Of a stretch of 34,986 bases of DNA, positions 2,392-17,149 are shown piece by piece. The stretch spans positions 1 through 34,986 of the forward strand of contig JTLC01000025.1 of the NCBI GenBank assembly GCA_000798955.1, written 5' to 3'. Source of the DNA: Firmicutes bacterium ZOR0006. Lineage in GTDB: Bacteria > Bacillota_I > Bacilli_A > Culicoidibacterales > ZOR0006. Every line of letters starts with the position of its first letter. Within the stretch, counting starts at the first letter, position 1. Made by a program: the position numbers and the translations under genes. The notes under the pieces are model-generated. The model had not been told where the DNA came from. It made no database searches and was given only the letters and a program-made list of their open reading frames with translations.

Positions 2392-5300
2392 TTATACTTT
2401 TTTCGTTTTACGTCGTAAGATTATTGCTCCAATCGTTGCTAAGACAATCCCCATTCCGCCGATTGTTGCAACTGCTTGTTCACCTGTATTCGGTAGTTTA
2501 CTCGCAGTATTTTCATCCGGATTTGGTGATGTTGAATTGTCTGGTGTTGTTCCTGATGATGGTGGTGTTGGGTTGGTTTCACCATCTGGTAGCGGATTTT
2601 CATTTGAATCTTTTTCAACTAATTGTTCGAAAGCTGTACGTAATTGTGCGACTGTCTCATCAACAATTTTTTGAGTTGCCGCTTCATCATTGAGAACTGC
2701 TTGTGCCGTAGCGAGTGCCTGCATTAAGCGATCTTGACTTGCTGTTGTGTACGCTGACAAATCAACTGTGCTGATTACTTGAACTAGCTCTGATAGCTCT
2801 GTTTTATTGACTTCTGGCGCAATCTCAACTTTTTCTTCTAGTGCATCAATGGCTGCTTGTAATGTTGTTTGGCTTGTCTGCACCTGTGCTACCGTTGGTA
2901 CTTGAAGATTGAGCGTTGCTTTTGCTGCTTCAATTGCTGTCTGCAGTTCAGCTACGGTCGCCGCCGTATAATGTGTTGGATCAATTGCTTCTGCCGTTTC
3001 AATTAACGTTTGTAACGTTGATAGCGCTCCTACTGTTGCGACTTCAATGAGTGCAAATTTCCCTAGCACTTGTGTTTCAAAGAGAAGTTGTTGTGCCCCC
3101 GTCACCTGAACTGGTACTTCCACTGCTGTTAAGCCATCGGCAGCAATTTGGAATAATTTATGATTTTCATTCAAAACAAAATCAGTCATATCTACGATTA
3201 CTTGGAGTGTACCAGTAAAAGTTGCTGGAATCTTGTCTAAATATGCTTCGATGGTAAACATGCCTTGTTCTGAATCACTATGTGGCCAAGCCTCTAATGT
3301 TGTACCTAATTCAAAGTATGGCTGTTTATCCATGTGCTCCATTTCAATTTGTGCTCCGGTAAATGTTGCCGTAACTTTGCCATCAGTCGTTGTGAGTGAC
3401 GTCACTTGAATTGCCAGTCGCGCCGCTTCAATTTTTGTGATGATTTCACTTGGTAATACCGCTTGTTCTTCGGCAGTAAATTCTGCATAAATTGCAAGAA
3501 TTGCTTTTACAGTTGGAACATCCGCTGCTGTCAACGCTTCTGCTTCTGGTAATTGTGTGACTTGTTCAATGAAATTATCCATGACAATACCACTTTGTTC
3601 ATATGCTTGAGTTAAATTAGCAATTAAATTCGTATAAAAACTCACACGCTCACCATAGAGTGTATGTTTCATCGCTGCAAACTCCGTTTGAATTGCTTCA
3701 ATACGTGCTAAACTTTCGGCACCGTAGCGAATATCATCCACAGTTGGTAAGGCTTGCATTGTAAATGTGACTTCCGTTTTATTTCCTGCTTCATCTGTAG
3801 CCACAACGGTATAGGTTTTAGCTTCATGTGTTGCCGGAATTTCATATTTCTCATCTACTGGCACACCATTAATTGTTACCTCAGCGATGTTTGTGTTATC
3901 ACTCACTTGCACAGTTCGATCAATATAATAATTACCGTTCGCTTCAACTCCAGTAATGACTGGCGCAATCGTATCGGCTTTTGCTTCAGCTTTTTCAATT
4001 GCAAAACTATCAATTATCGTCGTTGTTTGTGTCGCTAAATTCATTTCGTGAGCGGTATATGTGAGATAATCACCATCAACACTGATAGAAGCAAAGACAG
4101 GATTTTGAATGTCTGGTGTGTATGCCAACGGCAAGCCCGTTTCTTGTGGTTGATAAAACTTTGGTCCTGTTGTTCCGGTAATAGCATACACTGTTCCTTG
4201 TGGATTCATTGCTGTCTCATAAGTTGCCCCATTGATTTCACGTATTTCTTTGACTAAATCAGTTTCAATTTCACCGTTGACCAAATATTCTGAGCGGGCA
4301 TAAGTATGATCGTGGCCTTCTAATACAAAATCAATGTCTAATGCTGTCATTAAACTATCAAATTGCTCGCGAATCGCAATCACGTCTGCATCTTTATAAT
4401 GTGATCCATTTGAATACGGTGCCTTGTGCGTTTGGATTATTTTCCATTTGGCATCTGATTCATTTGCTGTTTGCGTCAACCACTCTACCTGATCAGCTGA
4501 TAAGGCTTGATCATCACCAAGATTATTCGTGTTCACCACCATGACGAGCACATTACCATAATCAACTTTATAATATGCCCCTGTCTCTAAATCTTGTACT
4601 GGTAAGTCTTGAATATTGAAATGTTTTGTGTGAGCCTCACCAGAGTCTTCATGATTGCCACTCGCTGTTACAATCGAGGTATTCATCAAATCTGCTTGTG
4701 GCTTATTTAAGAACCATTGCCATTGCAATTCATTTTTCCCATTATCAACCATATCACCAGCATGTGTGGCAAATTTCGCCTCTGGATACAAGCTAAAAGC
4801 TTCCTCAACGATTGCTCCCCATTGCTCGTATTCACTTTCAAGCATACTTTGCGTATCAGCAAAATTCAAGAATGTGAACGCATCATCATTTGTTTGTGCT
4901 GTTTCAAATGTCGCAGTATCAGTGAAAATACCTGTTGTCGCATCCCCAACACGATAATAGTATGTTGTCCCCGGTTGCAACCCATCAATCACGACCTGGT
5001 GGCGTGCGACTTCTTTATCTTTCGTAATCGCAATAATTCCTAAATCAATCGTCGGAAATGATCGCTTTACTATTTCTGAATCAGCATTGATGCTCGTGGC
5101 ATGCGTAAAGTCAATTTCACCATTTGCTTGTGTGACTACTTCATTCGCTTTAACAAATTGAATTTCATTTGTTGGAACATTTTTCCCTGTATACCAACTA
5201 AATGCTTTTTGTGTTGTCTCGTCAGCACCAAAGGTAACAGCAACTGAATGTGGCAATAAACCATTGCTGATTGATGGTGCTTGTGGCTGAACACCTTCAT

Positions 5301-7422
5301 ACGTTAAAATTCGTGCTGCCCCATCAATTGCATCATCTTGCGTATCATCACCAGCTAAACCATAAATTAAATCCCCAATTAAAACACCCATTTGCTTTTC
5401 AAAGCTTGGCGTAATATACGCTCCTAAATATTCATCAAGTGGTTGTTTAATCACATCAACAAGGTTAATCCCCAATTTATCAAGGGCATTATACAGTGAC
5501 TTATCTTTGCCTAGTAACATATTAATTGCCAACTGTAAAAATTTATCCGTTGTCAACGTTGTGACATCTACTTCTACTTTGTTCAATAAAGTAGGAATCA
5601 ACTCAAGTAACGAACCGATGACATTATCAATCAACTCTGAAATTCCTTCACCAGTCTGTAATTGATCCAATAACTCTTGTGCCCACCCTGAAAGGTCTTC
5701 TGCACCAAGAAAATGATCAATTAAAAATAAATTCAAGACATCTTGTAAAGTTTTATCCTCACCTGCACTTGATTCAAAAACAGTGATATTTAAAATATTG
5801 GTAATTAAGTTTTGAATTTCACCATTTAAAACTCCGGCATCCAATACTTGCTCGTCAATTTTTTTGACAATATCTTTGATAAAAGCTTCTAGAGTAAATT
5901 CTGCTCGGACGTTGTTTGCGCTATCTAGTGCAGTCATCACTTGCGTTTTCGCATCATACTTAAACGTCAGTTTCCCATATTCAGCCGTTTTGATTTGCTT
6001 TCCATCAAATGCTTGAGCGAGCGATGCTGTCATTTCTGTGAAGAACGCTGGTGTATCTTGCTCTTCAATGAGTGGAGCAATGTGTGTTTGGGCATATGTC
6101 GCGAGTGCCGCTACATCTTCTGAGGTTTGACTAGCATGTGCAATCACATCATTCACATCTGCCGCTCCAAAGATAAGTTCATATAAATTGATTTCAGCTA
6201 AGCTATTTACGAGTGATTCCAGAGCACCACCTAATTTAATTTGTAAATATTGGCTATCTTTGTAAATCGAGTCGTAAATGTAGGTTTGTAAATCAGCAAT
6301 ATTTTCTGTTGCTTTGACACTCTCAGAACGAACATGCACAGTTTCCTTGATTGTCTCCTCACCGGCCTTTTTTGTTTCCTGCTTCGTGAACTCAACTGTA
6401 CGTACTGGTGAACCATATGACGGTGTTGCAGCTGTTTCTATATCATAAATCGTATTTCCTGTTGGCGTCGTAAACTCCGCGATATCATTTTCATGCATGT
6501 GTCCAGTAAAGACATACCGTAACCCCGCATCTGCCAAACGCGTAGCAACCTCTTCATAATTATTGATGATGGCATCACCAACGGCTAATTCTGAAGATAA
6601 TGCGTGTGGCAAAAGTCCTTGGTGCATCATAGCAATAACCGTTTCACCATTCGCCTCGGCTTCTTTAATTTGTTGTTCGGCCCACTGCAATAAATCTTCA
6701 TTGAAGCCGGCACCATTCATTTTTATTTGACCATTCGCATCTGTTGTAAACAGTTGTGAATTCAGGGCTAAGATGACATATCCTGATTTTGGGCGAGCTA
6801 CGTATGACAGTTCTGGGTGAATTGTTGCATTGACTTCATCAGGATTGTCGCCAAAATATACCGTTTGAAACTGTTGTTGTTCATCTTGATAGCCAAAGTT
6901 TGCATATTGCTCTTGATAGGCTTCATACGAAACATGTTCGACTGCTTGTTTATCGCCATTTGGTCCATTAAATGCAAACGCCCCACTATATAAATCATGA
7001 TTCCCATTGACAACAAACACATCAATTCCTGTTGCTTTTTCAAACTCGTTGAGCAAATATGCTACTTCTTGGGTCCCAATGACTTCACCATTTTTTGTCA
7101 CATCACCAGGAATTAATAAAATATCCGGATTGCCACTAGCTGCTTGTTTTAAGGCCGCAACAAAAATTTCATCGGCTTCCTTTAAAAGATAAAGTTCTTT
7201 CGCCATGTAATTTTGATACTGTTCATTTTCAGTATTTGTCACTAATGCGCTCGGAAAATAATGTGGATCCGACAGGACAGCAACTTTTAAATTATCCAAT
7301 TCCGTATTTTCCGTCACTTCTGCAGCAAATGCTTGGATTGTTGGTAGTGAATATTGTGAAAATAGTGCCACTGCTGCTCCAACCATGATGGCTTTTTTCC
7401 CCTGTTTTTTATATTTCAACAT
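2392..7422 (-). CDS. LPXTG-anchored surface protein with two metallophosphoesterase domains
   Basis: 1676 residues. An N-terminal signal peptide ends near Ala33-Ala34 (AFAA). The first calcineurin-like metallophosphoesterase domain (about 45-345) has SDPHY (D52, H54), GD 106-107, GNHD 140-143, MHQ (H267) and GHMH 307-310. A helical region (about 375-700) has no fold I recognise. Next come a purple-acid-phosphatase-type FN3 domain (about 715-843) and a second catalytic domain with FADTQ (D856), GD 889-890, GNHE 922-925, H999 and GHDHTYAR from 1036. Then an Ig-like segment (about 1150-1222), FIVAR-like helical repeats (about 1465-1602), a Pro/Thr/Asn-rich wall spacer, LPNTG at 1643-1647, a membrane helix and the basic tail RRKTKKV. 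Both active sites look complete. It probably releases phosphate from organic esters or nucleotides outside the cell; the substrates are unknown. An AGAGGAGG site lies 8 nt before the ATG. It has no operon partner. Confidence 0.9.
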   Translation of the reverse strand: MLKYKKQGKKAIMVGAAVALFSQYSLPTIQAFAAEVTENTELDNLKVAVLSDPHYFPSALVTNTENEQYQNYMAKELYLLKEADEIFVAALKQAASGNPDILLIPGDVTKNGEVIGTQEVAYLLNEFEKATGIDVFVVNGNHDLYSGAFAFNGPNGDKQAVEHVSYEAYQEQYANFGYQDEQQQFQTVYFGDNPDEVNATIHPELSYVARPKSGYVILALNSQLFTTDANGQIKMNGAGFNEDLLQWAEQQIKEAEANGETVIAMMHQGLLPHALSSELAVGDAIINNYEEVATRLADAGLRYVFTGHMHENDIAEFTTPTGNTIYDIETAATPSYGSPVRTVEFTKQETKKAGEETIKETVHVRSESVKATENIADLQTYIYDSIYKDSQYLQIKLGGALESLVNSLAEINLYELIFGAADVNDVIAHASQTSEDVAALATYAQTHIAPLIEEQDTPAFFTEMTASLAQAFDGKQIKTAEYGKLTFKYDAKTQVMTALDSANNVRAEFTLEAFIKDIVKKIDEQVLDAGVLNGEIQNLITNILNITVFESSAGEDKTLQDVLNLFLIDHFLGAEDLSGWAQELLDQLQTGEGISELIDNVIGSLLELIPTLLNKVEVDVTTLTTDKFLQLAINMLLGKDKSLYNALDKLGINLVDVIKQPLDEYLGAYITPSFEKQMGVLIGDLIYGLAGDDTQDDAIDGAARILTYEGVQPQAPSISNGLLPHSVAVTFGADETTQKAFSWYTGKNVPTNEIQFVKANEVVTQANGEIDFTHATSINADSEIVKRSFPTIDLGIIAITKDKEVARHQVVIDGLQPGTTYYYRVGDATTGIFTDTATFETAQTNDDAFTFLNFADTQSMLESEYEQWGAIVEEAFSLYPEAKFATHAGDMVDNGKNELQWQWFLNKPQADLMNTSIVTASGNHEDSGEAHTKHFNIQDLPVQDLETGAYYKVDYGNVLVMVVNTNNLGDDQALSADQVEWLTQTANESDAKWKIIQTHKAPYSNGSHYKDADVIAIREQFDSLMTALDIDFVLEGHDHTYARSEYLVNGEIETDLVKEIREINGATYETAMNPQGTVYAITGTTGPKFYQPQETGLPLAYTPDIQNPVFASISVDGDYLTYTAHEMNLATQTTTIIDSFAIEKAEAKADTIAPVITGVEANGNYYIDRTVQVSDNTNIAEVTINGVPVDEKYEIPATHEAKTYTVVATDEAGNKTEVTFTMQALPTVDDIRYGAESLARIEAIQTEFAAMKHTLYGERVSFYTNLIANLTQAYEQSGIVMDNFIEQVTQLPEAEALTAADVPTVKAILAIYAEFTAEEQAVLPSEIITKIEAARLAIQVTSLTTTDGKVTATFTGAQIEMEHMDKQPYFELGTTLEAWPHSDSEQGMFTIEAYLDKIPATFTGTLQVIVDMTDFVLNENHKLFQIAADGLTAVEVPVQVTGAQQLLFETQVLGKFALIEVATVGALSTLQTLIETAEAIDPTHYTAATVAELQTAIEAAKATLNLQVPTVAQVQTSQTTLQAAIDALEEKVEIAPEVNKTELSELVQVISTVDLSAYTTASQDRLMQALATAQAVLNDEAATQKIVDETVAQLRTAFEQLVEKDSNENPLPDGETNPTPPSSGTTPDNSTSPNPDENTASKLPNTGEQAVATIGGMGIVLATIGAIILRRKTKKV

Positions 7423-11932: not shown

Positions 11933-12015
11933 GCGAGTATTTCCCTCATCCCATCCCCCAACAAAAAAACCCGTCAAAAGTGTGATGAACCCAATTATTT
12001 GGACAGTATAAAATT

Positions 12016-12870
12016 TTAAGTAAGTAAGGATTGATTTCTGTATTGAACAGGAGTCAGTCCTTTTAATTTTACCGAAATACGTTCGGTATTGTAATACTCG
12101 ATATATGTTTCAATTGCGAGTTGTAAATCTTCCAGTGTTTCAAACTCATTTTCATGACCAAAAAACATCTCGTTTTTTAAAAGGCTAAAGAAATTTTCCA
12201 TTGGAGAATTGTCCAGACAATTCCCTTTACGAGACATAGATTGATGAATTCCTCGATTTTGTAACGCCTCACGATATTGCTGCATTTGATATTGCCAACC
12301 TTGATCAGATTGGAAAATCAAGCCTTCTAAATTTTCATACTGTTCAAGTGCTCCAGTTAACATTGTCATTGTTTGTTCAAAGTTAGGTGATGTTGAAATA
12401 TTTACCGAAATAATATCGCGTGAATGTAAATCTAAAATTGGTGATAAATAGAGTTTTCCTGCCGCAATCTTAAACTCACTGACATCTGTTGACCAGATTT
12501 GATTTGTTTGTGTTGTTGTGAATTTTCGTTGATAATATGTTACATTTTTCTTCTCATCGACAACTTTTTCAAGCAAGAGATTTTTACACGTTCCATTTAA
12601 ATCACCTTGATACGAATTGTAACGTTTCTTTGTCTTTGGGTGTTTTCCATACAACTTCAACTCACTCATAATCCGTTTCACTCGCTTATGATTGATTTTA
12701 AAACCTTTATTCTTTAATTCAAGCGCAATCCGGCGGTATCCATATCGACCTTCATGATAGTGAAAGAGTGCTTTAATTTCCTCGATTAGTTCCACTGTTT
12801 CAGCACTTACCGTTTTATTTCGTTGGTAGTAAAATGTTGAACGACAGATTTCAATGACTTTCAGAACCAT
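12016..12870 (-). CDS. IS3-family transposase OrfB (DDE integrase domain)
   Basis: Catalytic subunit of the IS150-group transposase. The N-terminal part has CRSTFYY, followed by an HTH_21-type segment (YHEGRYGYRRIALEL). The rve/DDE core has D in WSTDVSEF, D in FQSDQGWQYQ and E in NSPMENFFSLLKNE, so the triad is complete. The family C-terminus (YYNTERISVKLKGLTPVQYR) is also present. The frame is open upstream of this ATG to the frameshift site, reading AEKVKLGNELRQKYPLE, so the natural product is an OrfAB fusion made by -1 slippage near 12912-12917; the internal ATG is only the first in-frame one. The protein cuts and joins the element's ends. Confidence 0.92.
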   Translation of the reverse strand: MVLKVIEICRSTFYYQRNKTVSAETVELIEEIKALFHYHEGRYGYRRIALELKNKGFKINHKRVKRIMSELKLYGKHPKTKKRYNSYQGDLNGTCKNLLLEKVVDEKKNVTYYQRKFTTTQTNQIWSTDVSEFKIAAGKLYLSPILDLHSRDIISVNISTSPNFEQTMTMLTGALEQYENLEGLIFQSDQGWQYQMQQYREALQNRGIHQSMSRKGNCLDNSPMENFFSLLKNEMFFGHENEFETLEDLQLAIETYIEYYNTERISVKLKGLTPVQYRNQSLLT

Positions 12871-12908
12871 TTCAAGTGGATATTTTTGCCGTAACTCATT
12901 GCCTAGTT

Positions 12909-13415
12909 TTACTTTTTCAGCGGTTGTTGGCTGCGTTTCTGAATTACGGCTTCTAACTTTTTTAAGTACTCTACTTCCAACTCTAAGTATAAATTTTTAT
13001 TTTCTAAATATTTGATTTTTTCGCTTTCAGTCATTTGTTCGTATTTTTTGGTTGGTTTTTTCATAGTAGCTCGTCTCCCTTTGGTTTTCTCTACTATAAC
13101 ATATCCTTCCAATTTATACTGCCTTATCCAGTTACATAACATTCCACGACTAAGCAAACCGTATTCAACTGCTGTGCTAATAAGCGATTTTTGATGAACC
13201 AACACTTGATCAATAATTTGTTGTTTCGTTTTCGGATCATAGTATGTTTTACATTTTTTATCCAAAATTTCTATTCCGTGGTGGTTTAGTAATCTTATCA
13301 AATATTCAATGTTCTTTCTATTTATTTTATATACTAGCGCTAATTGACTTATAGCTTCTCCTGATTTATATCTTGTATACATTTCAATTCGTTGTTCTTT
13401 TGTTAATTTCGCCAT
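12909..13415 (-). CDS. IS3-family transposase OrfA (helix-turn-helix)
   Basis: 168 residues. Two helix-turn-helix segments (from KLTKEQRIEMYTRYKSGEAI and from YGLLSRGMLCNWIRQYK) bind the element's ends. A leucine zipper (ENKNLYLELEVEYLKKLEAV) forms the dimer interface. The start is the ATG at 13415 (MAKLTKEQ), preceded by GGGGTG. An upstream ATG at 13457 is in frame but lies inside the 13426-13457 hairpin and has no ribosome site. The frame ends CTG AAA AAG TAA; the AAAAAG run at 12912-12917 is the likely -1 frameshift site into OrfB. Confidence 0.88.
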   Translation of the reverse strand: MAKLTKEQRIEMYTRYKSGEAISQLALVYKINRKNIEYLIRLLNHHGIEILDKKCKTYYDPKTKQQIIDQVLVHQKSLISTAVEYGLLSRGMLCNWIRQYKLEGYVIVEKTKGRRATMKKPTKKYEQMTESEKIKYLENKNLYLELEVEYLKKLEAVIQKRSQQPLKK

Positions 13416-13425
13416 ATAAAAACAC

Positions 13426-13457
13426 CCCATTATTTGTGTCCAAATAATGGGGTGCAT
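13426..13457 (-). other. 14-bp hairpin in the leader of IS orfA
   Basis: CACCCCATTATTTG and CAAATAATGGGGTG form a perfect 14-bp stem with a TGTC loop. On a transcript entering from outside, the hairpin would fold over the GGGGTG ribosome site of orfA and block its translation. Several insertion sequences are protected from read-through transcription this way. A transcript started inside it would not form it. Confidence 0.6.
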
Positions 13458-13487
13458 CGCAAAGTTGACGGGTTTTTTTGCGATATT

Positions 13488-14669
13488 TTATCGTAAATAG
13501 TATTCACGAATTTGACTATAATTCAATAATTGTAAAATGACATGTTGAAGCTCTGGTGTTTCTCCTTGTAATAAACAATTTGTCGGTAGTGCAGCAAAAC
13601 GAATTCGGCCATCAACGAGTAGATCAGGACTTTCTTCAGCAATTTTTGCAAGTAATGCTTCAGTAATCATCTTTTCATCACGACGTTTCGCAAGACGACC
13701 ATTATGCCAAAGTACATATTCTTCCGTTTCGCGATTTAAGTCCGCACTCCGGTTTAAATCAAGTTGTAAAACTTGATAGCTTTCTCGTTCATCATCAAAC
13801 AAACAATATAAAGCCGTTGTCTGTTTATTACCAATCGTAGCTACTGCCACCAAGAATGAGGCAATCTGGTAGTTTCCAGCTTGATCATGAATCAAAAGCG
13901 TCCGATAATGTCCTGCTGGTGCTACACCTTGAATGTGACTCTCGCGCAATTCTCGTAATCCCAAATCTTGAACTAGCGTCACTGCTTGCTGTGTCAATGG
14001 TGAAAAGTGGCTTTGGCTATCAAAAAGTGCTTCTGCCAGATTCACGACAACAGGTACAAGCTCATCTTTGACACTTGCCCCAATTGTGTACCAATCTTGT
14101 TCATAATCTAATTGACGTAAATATTCGCTTTGTTGGAGTTGCTCTAAGTTTTGGCGAACAAATGGCTTTGTTTGCTCTTGGAGTCCCGCTTTCTCAGGAA
14201 TAAGCTGGGCATAAGGCTGTAATTCACATGGTTCGTAGTCCGTTCCAAGTTGATTTAATTGAGCAAAATAAACAGTTGTTCCATTCGTTAAAAGTAAGTA
14301 ACGACTCCCAAGTTCCATTGCTGATTCGTGAGCTTTTGTATACATGCTCGGCAATAATTCTTGGTGCTGATTACTACATCTCACATAGATAAGTGGTTTT
14401 AATTTTCCTTGGCGATAATACTCGACGACAAAGTCTCCTACTCGCTCTGAGGGAATACGATATGTACGGAATGGCATTGCACTCTGAATCATCGTTGTTG
14501 GTACGGTAAGCGTCGTCACTAAGTATGTCCCGATATATTGTTTTAACGTTTGAAAATCATTGATTGGAACAAAACGTTTCTGCCAGATATCAAGATAATG
14601 TTCTTCTTGCTGATGCATATATATTTTTGGTGCTGGTGCTGTTGCTAAATTGGGTTGGAGCTTCTCCAT
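13488..14669 (-). CDS. HsdR-N-like (HSDR_N_2) domain protein with lost catalytic residues
   Basis: 393 residues. The N-terminal 40-145 region resembles the type I restriction R-subunit N-terminal fold (HSDR_N_2, a PD-(D/E)xK nuclease): RVGD at 76-79 (the family's R-x-x-D strand), PLIYVRCS at 92-99, a helix with KAHESAMELGSRY, then LLLTNG at 125-130. Where active members have E-C-K, this protein has R-C-S (97-99), so Glu and Lys are gone and cleavage is unlikely. The rest (150-393) is unrecognised. There is no helicase domain and no hsdM/hsdS nearby, so it is not a restriction enzyme. The ATG follows the stop codon of the EAL gene by one base, with AGGG inside that gene's last codons: translation is coupled and the two probably work together. 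Similarity was judged by eye only. Confidence 0.5.
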   Translation of the reverse strand: MEKLQPNLATAPAPKIYMHQQEEHYLDIWQKRFVPINDFQTLKQYIGTYLVTTLTVPTTMIQSAMPFRTYRIPSERVGDFVVEYYRQGKLKPLIYVRCSNQHQELLPSMYTKAHESAMELGSRYLLLTNGTTVYFAQLNQLGTDYEPCELQPYAQLIPEKAGLQEQTKPFVRQNLEQLQQSEYLRQLDYEQDWYTIGASVKDELVPVVVNLAEALFDSQSHFSPLTQQAVTLVQDLGLRELRESHIQGVAPAGHYRTLLIHDQAGNYQIASFLVAVATIGNKQTTALYCLFDDERESYQVLQLDLNRSADLNRETEEYVLWHNGRLAKRRDEKMITEALLAKIAEESPDLLVDGRIRFAALPTNCLLQGETPELQHVILQLLNYSQIREYYLR

Positions 14670-14670
14670 G

Positions 14671-17031
14671 CTATTCCCTACTTTCTTCTTTTATTATTTT
14701 TAACGCTTCGGATTCTGCTAATGGTTTTGAGAAATAGTACCCTTGAATGGCATCAACGCCGGATTGCTGTAAAAAGGCAAGTTCTTCAGCACTTTCCACC
14801 CCTTCTGCTAAAATTGGCAGTTGTAATGAATGGACAGCGTCAATCATCATCTGTACCAATGTGCGATACTGGGAACTCGTTGTCAATTCACGAATAAAAC
14901 TCCGATCAATTTTGACTTTTGAGAGTGGCAGTTTCACTAAATAATTTAATGATGAGTATCCGATGCCAAAATCATCGAGTGAAATTGTCATACCAAGATC
15001 TCGAAGTTGCGCAAGTTTGGCAACATTCGCTTCGATGTCCTCAAGTAAAACTGTTTCTGTTATTTCCAATTCAAGTAATTCGGGAGCAATCCCAACTTCT
15101 TGTAATAACCGTTCCACCATACTCACAAAATTATCCGCCATCACTTGATGGGCAGAAATATTGATTGCGACACTGAGTGGTCGGTCATGTTGTTCATTGA
15201 TTCTTTTGGCGAACTGCATTGCCTTACGCATGATATATTCACCCATTTCATGAATCAGTTGCCCTTTTTCAATTAATTCAATCATTTGTAATACCGTTAA
15301 ATACCGATATTTATCACTTGACCACCGAAAGAGTGCTTCAAAACCAATCAACGTTTTTTCACATGTATATTGTGGTTGATAAAATAAAATCACTTCTTCT
15401 TTGCTGAGTGCCGATTTAAAATCTTGACTAAATTCTTCATACAAACGTCGCTTAGCATCGAGGCTTGGCGTATAGAAGCAAATTTTATTTACTCCCATTT
15501 TTTTAGCCGCTTGGCGAGCTGTTTCCCCGCGGAGAATAATCTCATCAATTTGATCATGACTCATAGCTTGTTGAACAATTCCGACACGAAGTGAAATATG
15601 ATAACTTTCATTATTTTTGAGAATTGGTCGTTCTAATTTTTCAAGTATTGTCTCAACATGTTGCTGTAACATCTCGATTTCCTGTTGTGTCTGCATTGCT
15701 GTTAAAATTGTAAATTTATCACCATCATCACGGACAACAAGCGCTTGTGGGAAAGCAATTTGCAGCCGTTTTGCTAATGTTTGTAAAACTAAATTTCCCA
15801 TTGAATGACCATACTGATCATTAAACCGTTTAAAATTATCAATATCAAAAAAAATCATGGCTGCATGCTGTGGCTTTTGATAGTGAGTGTGTAAATGTTG
15901 GTATAACCCACTACGATTCATAACTCCAGTTAATGTATCTTCGTAGGCTAATTTTTCCATGATGGCTTCTTGAGCGACTGCTTTGGTAATATCTCGTAAA
16001 ATCACAATAATGCCTTCTGTTTTTTTATCGATGCCAAAGAAAGGGGCTTTATGAAACTCAAATATTCGCTCACTACCATTTTTGAATACTTTTGCCCGAT
16101 AGATAATCGGCTCACCTTTTTCTAACACTTGCAAGTCTTGCTTGCGAATACGTTCACGATCTAGTGTACTCGCGACAAATTTCGCATCATAAACACTATC
16201 ACCAATATGAATTGGTTGATCAACATGTTGCTGGTACTTCGAATTCATATTGATTAATTTACCTTCACGATCACGAATACACACGGCAAAAGGCAAGTTT
16301 TCTAACACTTTTTCAAGTTTATTTTGCTCATTGATCGCATCAGTAATATCTTTTGCAATTCCGATTGTGCCAATGACACTCGCTGTCTCGTCAATAACTG
16401 GTGCTTTATACACATGAAATTTGCGATAACCAAGTTTTCCAGGAATCATCTCATCAAATACAATTTGTTGCCGCTCATTCATCACTTGCAAGTCAAATTC
16501 TCGACAACGTTCACCAATTTGTCCATCCCAAACGTAGGCATCACCACGTTGATAGATTTCAGACATCGTTTTTCCACAATGGGTTTGAAAATGTTGATTT
16601 GCCCGAATATACTGGCTCTCTGTATTTTTAAACCAAGCCATATACGGAATATTCTCTAATAACGTATTGAATTGTAGTTCAGTGCTTGCTGCTTCTTCTA
16701 GCAACATTTGCCATCGCTGTCCTCGTTTTTGACAAATTTGCCATTGTTGATGTGTGAATGGTTGGTATAGATAATCAACATAATTGCTTGTATTTTCATA
16801 TGTTAACACTGATGTCATATCATTAGAAAGCACAATGAAAATCCACTGTGTTGGCTGAAGTTTTAGATTTTTAAAATGTTCGATTGCGCGTTGATTGACG
16901 ATAACAATGTCATACATTGTAATTGTGTGTGTATCAACCGTCGTGGCATCTTGAAAATCTAAAATGTGTTCCGTTTCTAAAAAGGTAAAGTCTTGCTGTG
17001 TCTCTAACACATCTATCAATAAAATTTTCAT
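14671..17031 (-). CDS. PAS-PAS-GGDEF(degenerate)-EAL cyclic-di-GMP phosphodiesterase
   Basis: 786 residues, no membrane segment. The order is a receiver-like N-terminal domain (1-105) without clear phosphorylation residues, PAS 1 (about 118-232), PAS 2 (about 240-352), GGDEF (about 362-520) and EAL (about 535-780). The GGDEF signature is DGDKF (436-440): the catalytic Glu is Lys, so cyclase activity is unlikely, though GTP might still bind and act as a regulator. The EAL domain is complete: EAL 565-567, NIS 624-626, ELEITE 654-659, DDFG 686-689, K707, E743 and QGYYFSKP from 763, so it should hydrolyse c-di-GMP. GAGGA lies 9 nt before the ATG. It is transcribed with the overlapping HsdR-N-like gene. 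The PAS domains suggest input from a small ligand or redox signal; which one is unknown. Confidence 0.9.
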   Translation of the reverse strand: MKILLIDVLETQQDFTFLETEHILDFQDATTVDTHTITMYDIVIVNQRAIEHFKNLKLQPTQWIFIVLSNDMTSVLTYENTSNYVDYLYQPFTHQQWQICQKRGQRWQMLLEEAASTELQFNTLLENIPYMAWFKNTESQYIRANQHFQTHCGKTMSEIYQRGDAYVWDGQIGERCREFDLQVMNERQQIVFDEMIPGKLGYRKFHVYKAPVIDETASVIGTIGIAKDITDAINEQNKLEKVLENLPFAVCIRDREGKLINMNSKYQQHVDQPIHIGDSVYDAKFVASTLDRERIRKQDLQVLEKGEPIIYRAKVFKNGSERIFEFHKAPFFGIDKKTEGIIVILRDITKAVAQEAIMEKLAYEDTLTGVMNRSGLYQHLHTHYQKPQHAAMIFFDIDNFKRFNDQYGHSMGNLVLQTLAKRLQIAFPQALVVRDDGDKFTILTAMQTQQEIEMLQQHVETILEKLERPILKNNESYHISLRVGIVQQAMSHDQIDEIILRGETARQAAKKMGVNKICFYTPSLDAKRRLYEEFSQDFKSALSKEEVILFYQPQYTCEKTLIGFEALFRWSSDKYRYLTVLQMIELIEKGQLIHEMGEYIMRKAMQFAKRINEQHDRPLSVAINISAHQVMADNFVSMVERLLQEVGIAPELLELEITETVLLEDIEANVAKLAQLRDLGMTISLDDFGIGYSSLNYLVKLPLSKVKIDRSFIRELTTSSQYRTLVQMMIDAVHSLQLPILAEGVESAEELAFLQQSGVDAIQGYYFSKPLAESEALKIIKEESRE

Positions 17032-17116: not shown

Positions 17117-17149
17117 GAAAAAAAGCCTGAAGTTTAACAACTTCAGGCT
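17117..17149 (-). terminator. Intrinsic terminator of rplS
   Basis: Perfect 11-bp stem AGCCTGAAGTT/AACTTCAGGCT (17124-17134 with 17139-17149), 4-nt loop, then at least six T on the minus strand. Confidence 0.92.

Follow-up and report, generated by a model that had tools for sequence, protein, structure and literature searches.

Phosphodiesterases of the MorA, DosP and PdeR type are GGDEF-EAL composites, in which PAS, GGDEF and EAL domains follow one another in this order and the catalytic motifs of the EAL domain are intact. A special group among the active EAL enzymes are the trigger phosphodiesterases, which bind and hydrolyze c-di-GMP and thereby control a bound macromolecule (PMC5052742). 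Examples are PdeR and PdeL of E. coli, each proposed to control a macromolecular partner. From a different field, the type I restriction enzymes are known for the N-terminal nuclease domain HSDR_N_2 (PF13588), which in HsdR subunits is followed by a helicase. The two neighboring genes described here consist of such ordinary, known parts, in a combination that is apparently undescribed. In open-licence papers on HSDR_N_2, on HsdR together with c-di-GMP, and on the genus, we found nothing on the pair, and no description of an HSDR_N_2 family carrying the C-terminal domain presented below.

The window, a stretch of 34,986 nucleotides from contig JTLC01000025.1 of Firmicutes bacterium ZOR0006, encodes both genes on its minus strand. 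Open reading frames and Pfam matches define a PAS-PAS-GGDEF-EAL gene of 786 aa (14671..17031) and an HSDR_N_2-type gene of 393 aa (13488..14669). A single base (14670) lies between the stop of the former and the start of the latter, as the initial annotation had stated. The segment 14670..14684 (minus strand) holds the Shine-Dalgarno-like AGTAGGGA, which overlaps the last part of the EAL gene, together with the TAG stop of this gene and the single base before the ATG; in this genome, the ribosome-binding site of the 393-aa gene falls within the EAL gene. On the other side, a terminator-like hairpin after rplS (17124..17149, minus strand) parts the pair from the ribosomal-protein genes. The sister species has an equivalent site, and thus transcription of the pair is probably separate from that of these genes. 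We infer that the two genes form a small co-transcribed unit behind the rplS terminator. A few bases beyond the stop of the 393-aa gene lies an IS3-family element with 44-bp inverted ends (11962..13480, strand not assigned), the only full copy detected in this genome. Rfam families were absent from both the window and the sister-species locus. Elsewhere in the window (2392-7422), a 1676-aa protein carries a purple acid phosphatase N-terminal domain, a calcineurin-like phosphoesterase domain, and FIVAR domains.

In Pfam, the 786-aa protein matches two PAS_4 stretches, GGDEF (8.1e-31) and EAL (3.8e-62). Aligned with MorA (4rnh, Protein Data Bank), its EAL domain (14722..15426, minus strand) shows the complete catalytic motif set: EAL itself, the N in NISAHQ, the two acidic residues of EITE, DDFG, the K in KID, the E in AEGVE, and the Q in QGYYF. 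Judged by these motifs, the domain should be an active c-di-GMP phosphodiesterase. The GGDEF domain (15487..15948, minus strand) has DGDKF in place of the GG[DE]EF active-site signature when aligned with that of MorA, and an RxxD I-site is absent at the usual distance; therefore, cyclase activity is not expected. Both the Pfam matches and the MorA alignment agree with the initial annotation, which had read the protein as PAS-PAS-GGDEF-EAL with a DGDKF signature and a complete EAL domain. Likely membrane segments were found neither in this nor in the 393-aa protein, and the phosphodiesterase is predicted to be soluble. Compared with the MorA, DosP and PdeR type, it thus differs by the DGDKF signature, the lack of a membrane segment, and an extra receiver-like N-terminal region. 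The latter (residues 1-110, tentatively 16702..17031, minus strand) has no Pfam match. Within their first ~110 residues, the EAL protein and two relatives show a receiver-like pattern, for example VDYL-x-x-P, and a profile of the three sequences matched response regulators from the Protein Data Bank at E 0.2-0.6, behind CalpL chains at 0.11. These weak matches suggest that the region, which the initial annotation had not mentioned, may be a degenerate receiver.

The 2-Mb genome encodes 13 GGDEF and 7 EAL domains, which indicates that c-di-GMP signaling is in use. As no match to a PilZ receptor was detected in the same genome, c-di-GMP must be read in another way. One EAL paralogue (L070 1916-4294) has the same architecture, with 36% identity over its length, and also an altered GGDEF signature (RDSDEF). 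No partner of the 393-aa type was found beside it. The paralogue is convergent with the gene of a GGDEF protein of intact signature. Two further genomes from the same order were searched, and neither has a counterpart of the EAL gene or of the 393-aa gene, nor any EAL match.

The N-terminal half of the 393-aa protein matches HSDR_N_2 weakly (E 9.4e-5, 22.9 bits by hmmscan; 25.4 bits by genome search), the curated Pfam cut-off being 25 bits. Among its relatives, the sister-species orthologue scores just above this cut-off (25.4 bits), and a homologue from Hymenobacter canadensis matches strongly (79.2 bits). In the genome of the window, one HSDR_N_2 protein only scores over the cut-off. Besides the weak profile match, a conserved D79 and a TNG segment are shared with this domain family. 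The remaining ~200 residues have no match in Pfam, NCBIfam or the Protein Data Bank, and no helicase match was found in the protein. By profile comparison, it is probably a divergent HSDR_N_2 domain, of the PD-(D/E)xK kind, joined to a conserved C-terminal domain of ~200 aa. It differs from type I enzymes by the loss of E-x-K, the lack of a helicase, and this separate C-terminal domain. AlphaFold2 models made without an alignment were unusable (mean pLDDT 34.5 for the whole protein and 36.1 for the C-terminal domain). An identity as Csx19 was set aside, the match being limited to one species at E 0.007.

Full-length relatives of the 393-aa protein are few. By tblastn, one was retrieved from a plasmid of Hymenobacter canadensis, WP_269562310.1, annotated as a type I restriction enzyme HsdR N-terminal domain protein. 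It is 23% identical over 345 residues, across both halves (E 1e-21 in a single comparison). Matches of database contigs to the Hymenobacter protein were rejected, because they covered only its first 13-18 residues, which overlap an IS5 transposase. A third full-length relative, from another Bacilli genome (G402), has a frameshift near its N-terminus, and its two pieces were joined for alignment only. Scans of genomic and viral contigs with the 393-aa family gave no true relatives.

In the alignment, the codons of R97-C98-S99 (14373..14381, minus strand) stand where E-x-K would be, while the upstream D79 is retained. The sister-species orthologue reads K-C-T at this position. In contrast, the motif is intact in the distant full-length members, as D...V-E-C-K (WP_269562310.1) and D...I-E-C-K, and the HsdR-like proteins from the same scans read V-E-A-K, L-E-A-K or I-E-A-K. 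Being absent in both members of the genus and present in distant homologues, E-x-K was truly lost, probably before the two species diverged. The 393-aa protein is predicted to be a nuclease fold unable to cut by the usual mechanism. The HsdR N-terminal resemblance, the exchange of E-x-K for R-C-S, and the pseudo-nuclease reading, all put forward in the initial annotation, are supported by these comparisons.

The sister species (G001) was the sole other species of the genus in our comparison. Its gene order is that of the window: AraC regulator, MatE transporter, a variable interval, the 393-aa protein, the EAL protein, rplS, trmD, rimM, and ffh. Absence of the pair from every other genome had been named beforehand as a refutation of the initial annotation, but the pair is found in the sister species, at the same place. 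The variable interval after MatE holds the IS3 element in the window and spermidine-type genes in the sister species; the latter resemble speA, speD, speE and speB of polyamine synthesis (the spermidine, trmD and rimM names were assigned from the sequences). Between the two species, the 393-aa protein is 53% and the EAL protein 49% identical; trmD and rimM are more similar, at 82% and 86%. In both genes of the pair the differences are concentrated in third codon positions (0.37, 0.28 and 0.55 differences for the three positions of the 393-aa gene), showing that both proteins are under purifying selection. However, the EAL protein of the sister species has an intact GGDEF signature (RDGGDEF), and 108 nt separate its gene from the partner (L013 9355-9463, minus strand). 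Hence, the dead GGDEF domain and the tight coupling, both of which the initial annotation relied on, are not conserved. The gap contains hairpins far more stable than those of shuffled sequences (z -5.7), followed by a U-rich stretch, and has no Rfam match.

Outside the genus, the pair was not found in about 1,180 genome scans at phylum and class level (three partly overlapping draws of 392, 395 and 391 genomes). The only other full-length relative of the 393-aa protein in these scans was that of G402. No EAL gene was seen beside it, but the relative lies at a contig end with its upstream gene out of view, and the genome is 85% complete. Its three EAL genes are all on other contigs, kilobases from the contig ends. 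Also beside the Hymenobacter canadensis homologue, no EAL gene was seen.

Based on gene order and motif states, we tentatively favor a unit in which a soluble c-di-GMP phosphodiesterase is co-transcribed with a nuclease-fold partner that lacks catalysis, possibly arranged as in trigger phosphodiesterases. The PAS domains, perhaps together with the degenerate receiver, would take the signal, and the non-catalytic GGDEF domain would be at most regulatory. The EAL domain would hydrolyze c-di-GMP. The 393-aa protein would most likely bind nucleic acid or the phosphodiesterase, and its state would be set by the latter in the trigger fashion. Different from PdeR and PdeL, the supposed partner is the adjacent pseudo-nuclease, and the proposed link is drawn from gene adjacency. 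In favor of a linked unit, the order was kept while the two proteins diverged to about half identity and trmD and rimM stayed above 80%; the genes are adjacent on the same strand, with a terminator-like site upstream in both species and an intact EAL domain. Against it speak the restriction to one genus, the hairpin gap of the sister species, the unpartnered EAL paralogue, and the relatives seen without an EAL gene. The two-protein signaling unit of the initial annotation therefore holds only in part: the pair and its order are kept within the genus and the one-base gap is real, whereas the tight coupling is absent from the sister species, and no pairing was seen with the distant homologues. 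A more specific version, in which the non-cutting protein is a dedicated target or co-sensor of the phosphodiesterase, forming a local and so far undescribed switch by which c-di-GMP acts on DNA or RNA, is unlikely.

Nearly as likely as the linked unit is that the two genes are independent neighbors. The phosphodiesterase would be an ordinary member of the c-di-GMP network, and the other gene would encode a standalone protein of the HsdR-N type that was acquired, lost catalysis, and took an unrelated role, their linkage reflecting common descent. This explanation stays so close because the whole region is syntenic, from AraC and MatE to ffh, and only two species are available, which makes linkage in both weak evidence. 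The differences in gap length and GGDEF state, and homologues not paired with EAL genes, point the same way. On the other hand, the pair is contiguous in both species though the interval just beyond it differs, and in this genome one gene carries the ribosome-binding site of the other.

Two other explanations concern the 393-aa protein itself. Catalytic residues are known to migrate within the PD-(D/E)xK superfamily, and D79, E83 and E104 are identical in both species; the protein could still be a nuclease with relocated catalytic residues, regulated by or with the phosphodiesterase. We consider this improbable, since in both species a basic residue stands in place of the E of the motif and a hydroxyl residue in place of its K. 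Least credible is a decaying, functionless gene, as the lost motif and the IS element at the 3' end might suggest, given the full-length reading frame in both species, the purifying selection already observed, and a C-terminal domain conserved in another phylum.

If the link between phosphodiesterase and nuclease-fold protein is real, a pseudo-nuclease would join the targets of c-di-GMP signaling, in a genome without a detectable PilZ receptor.
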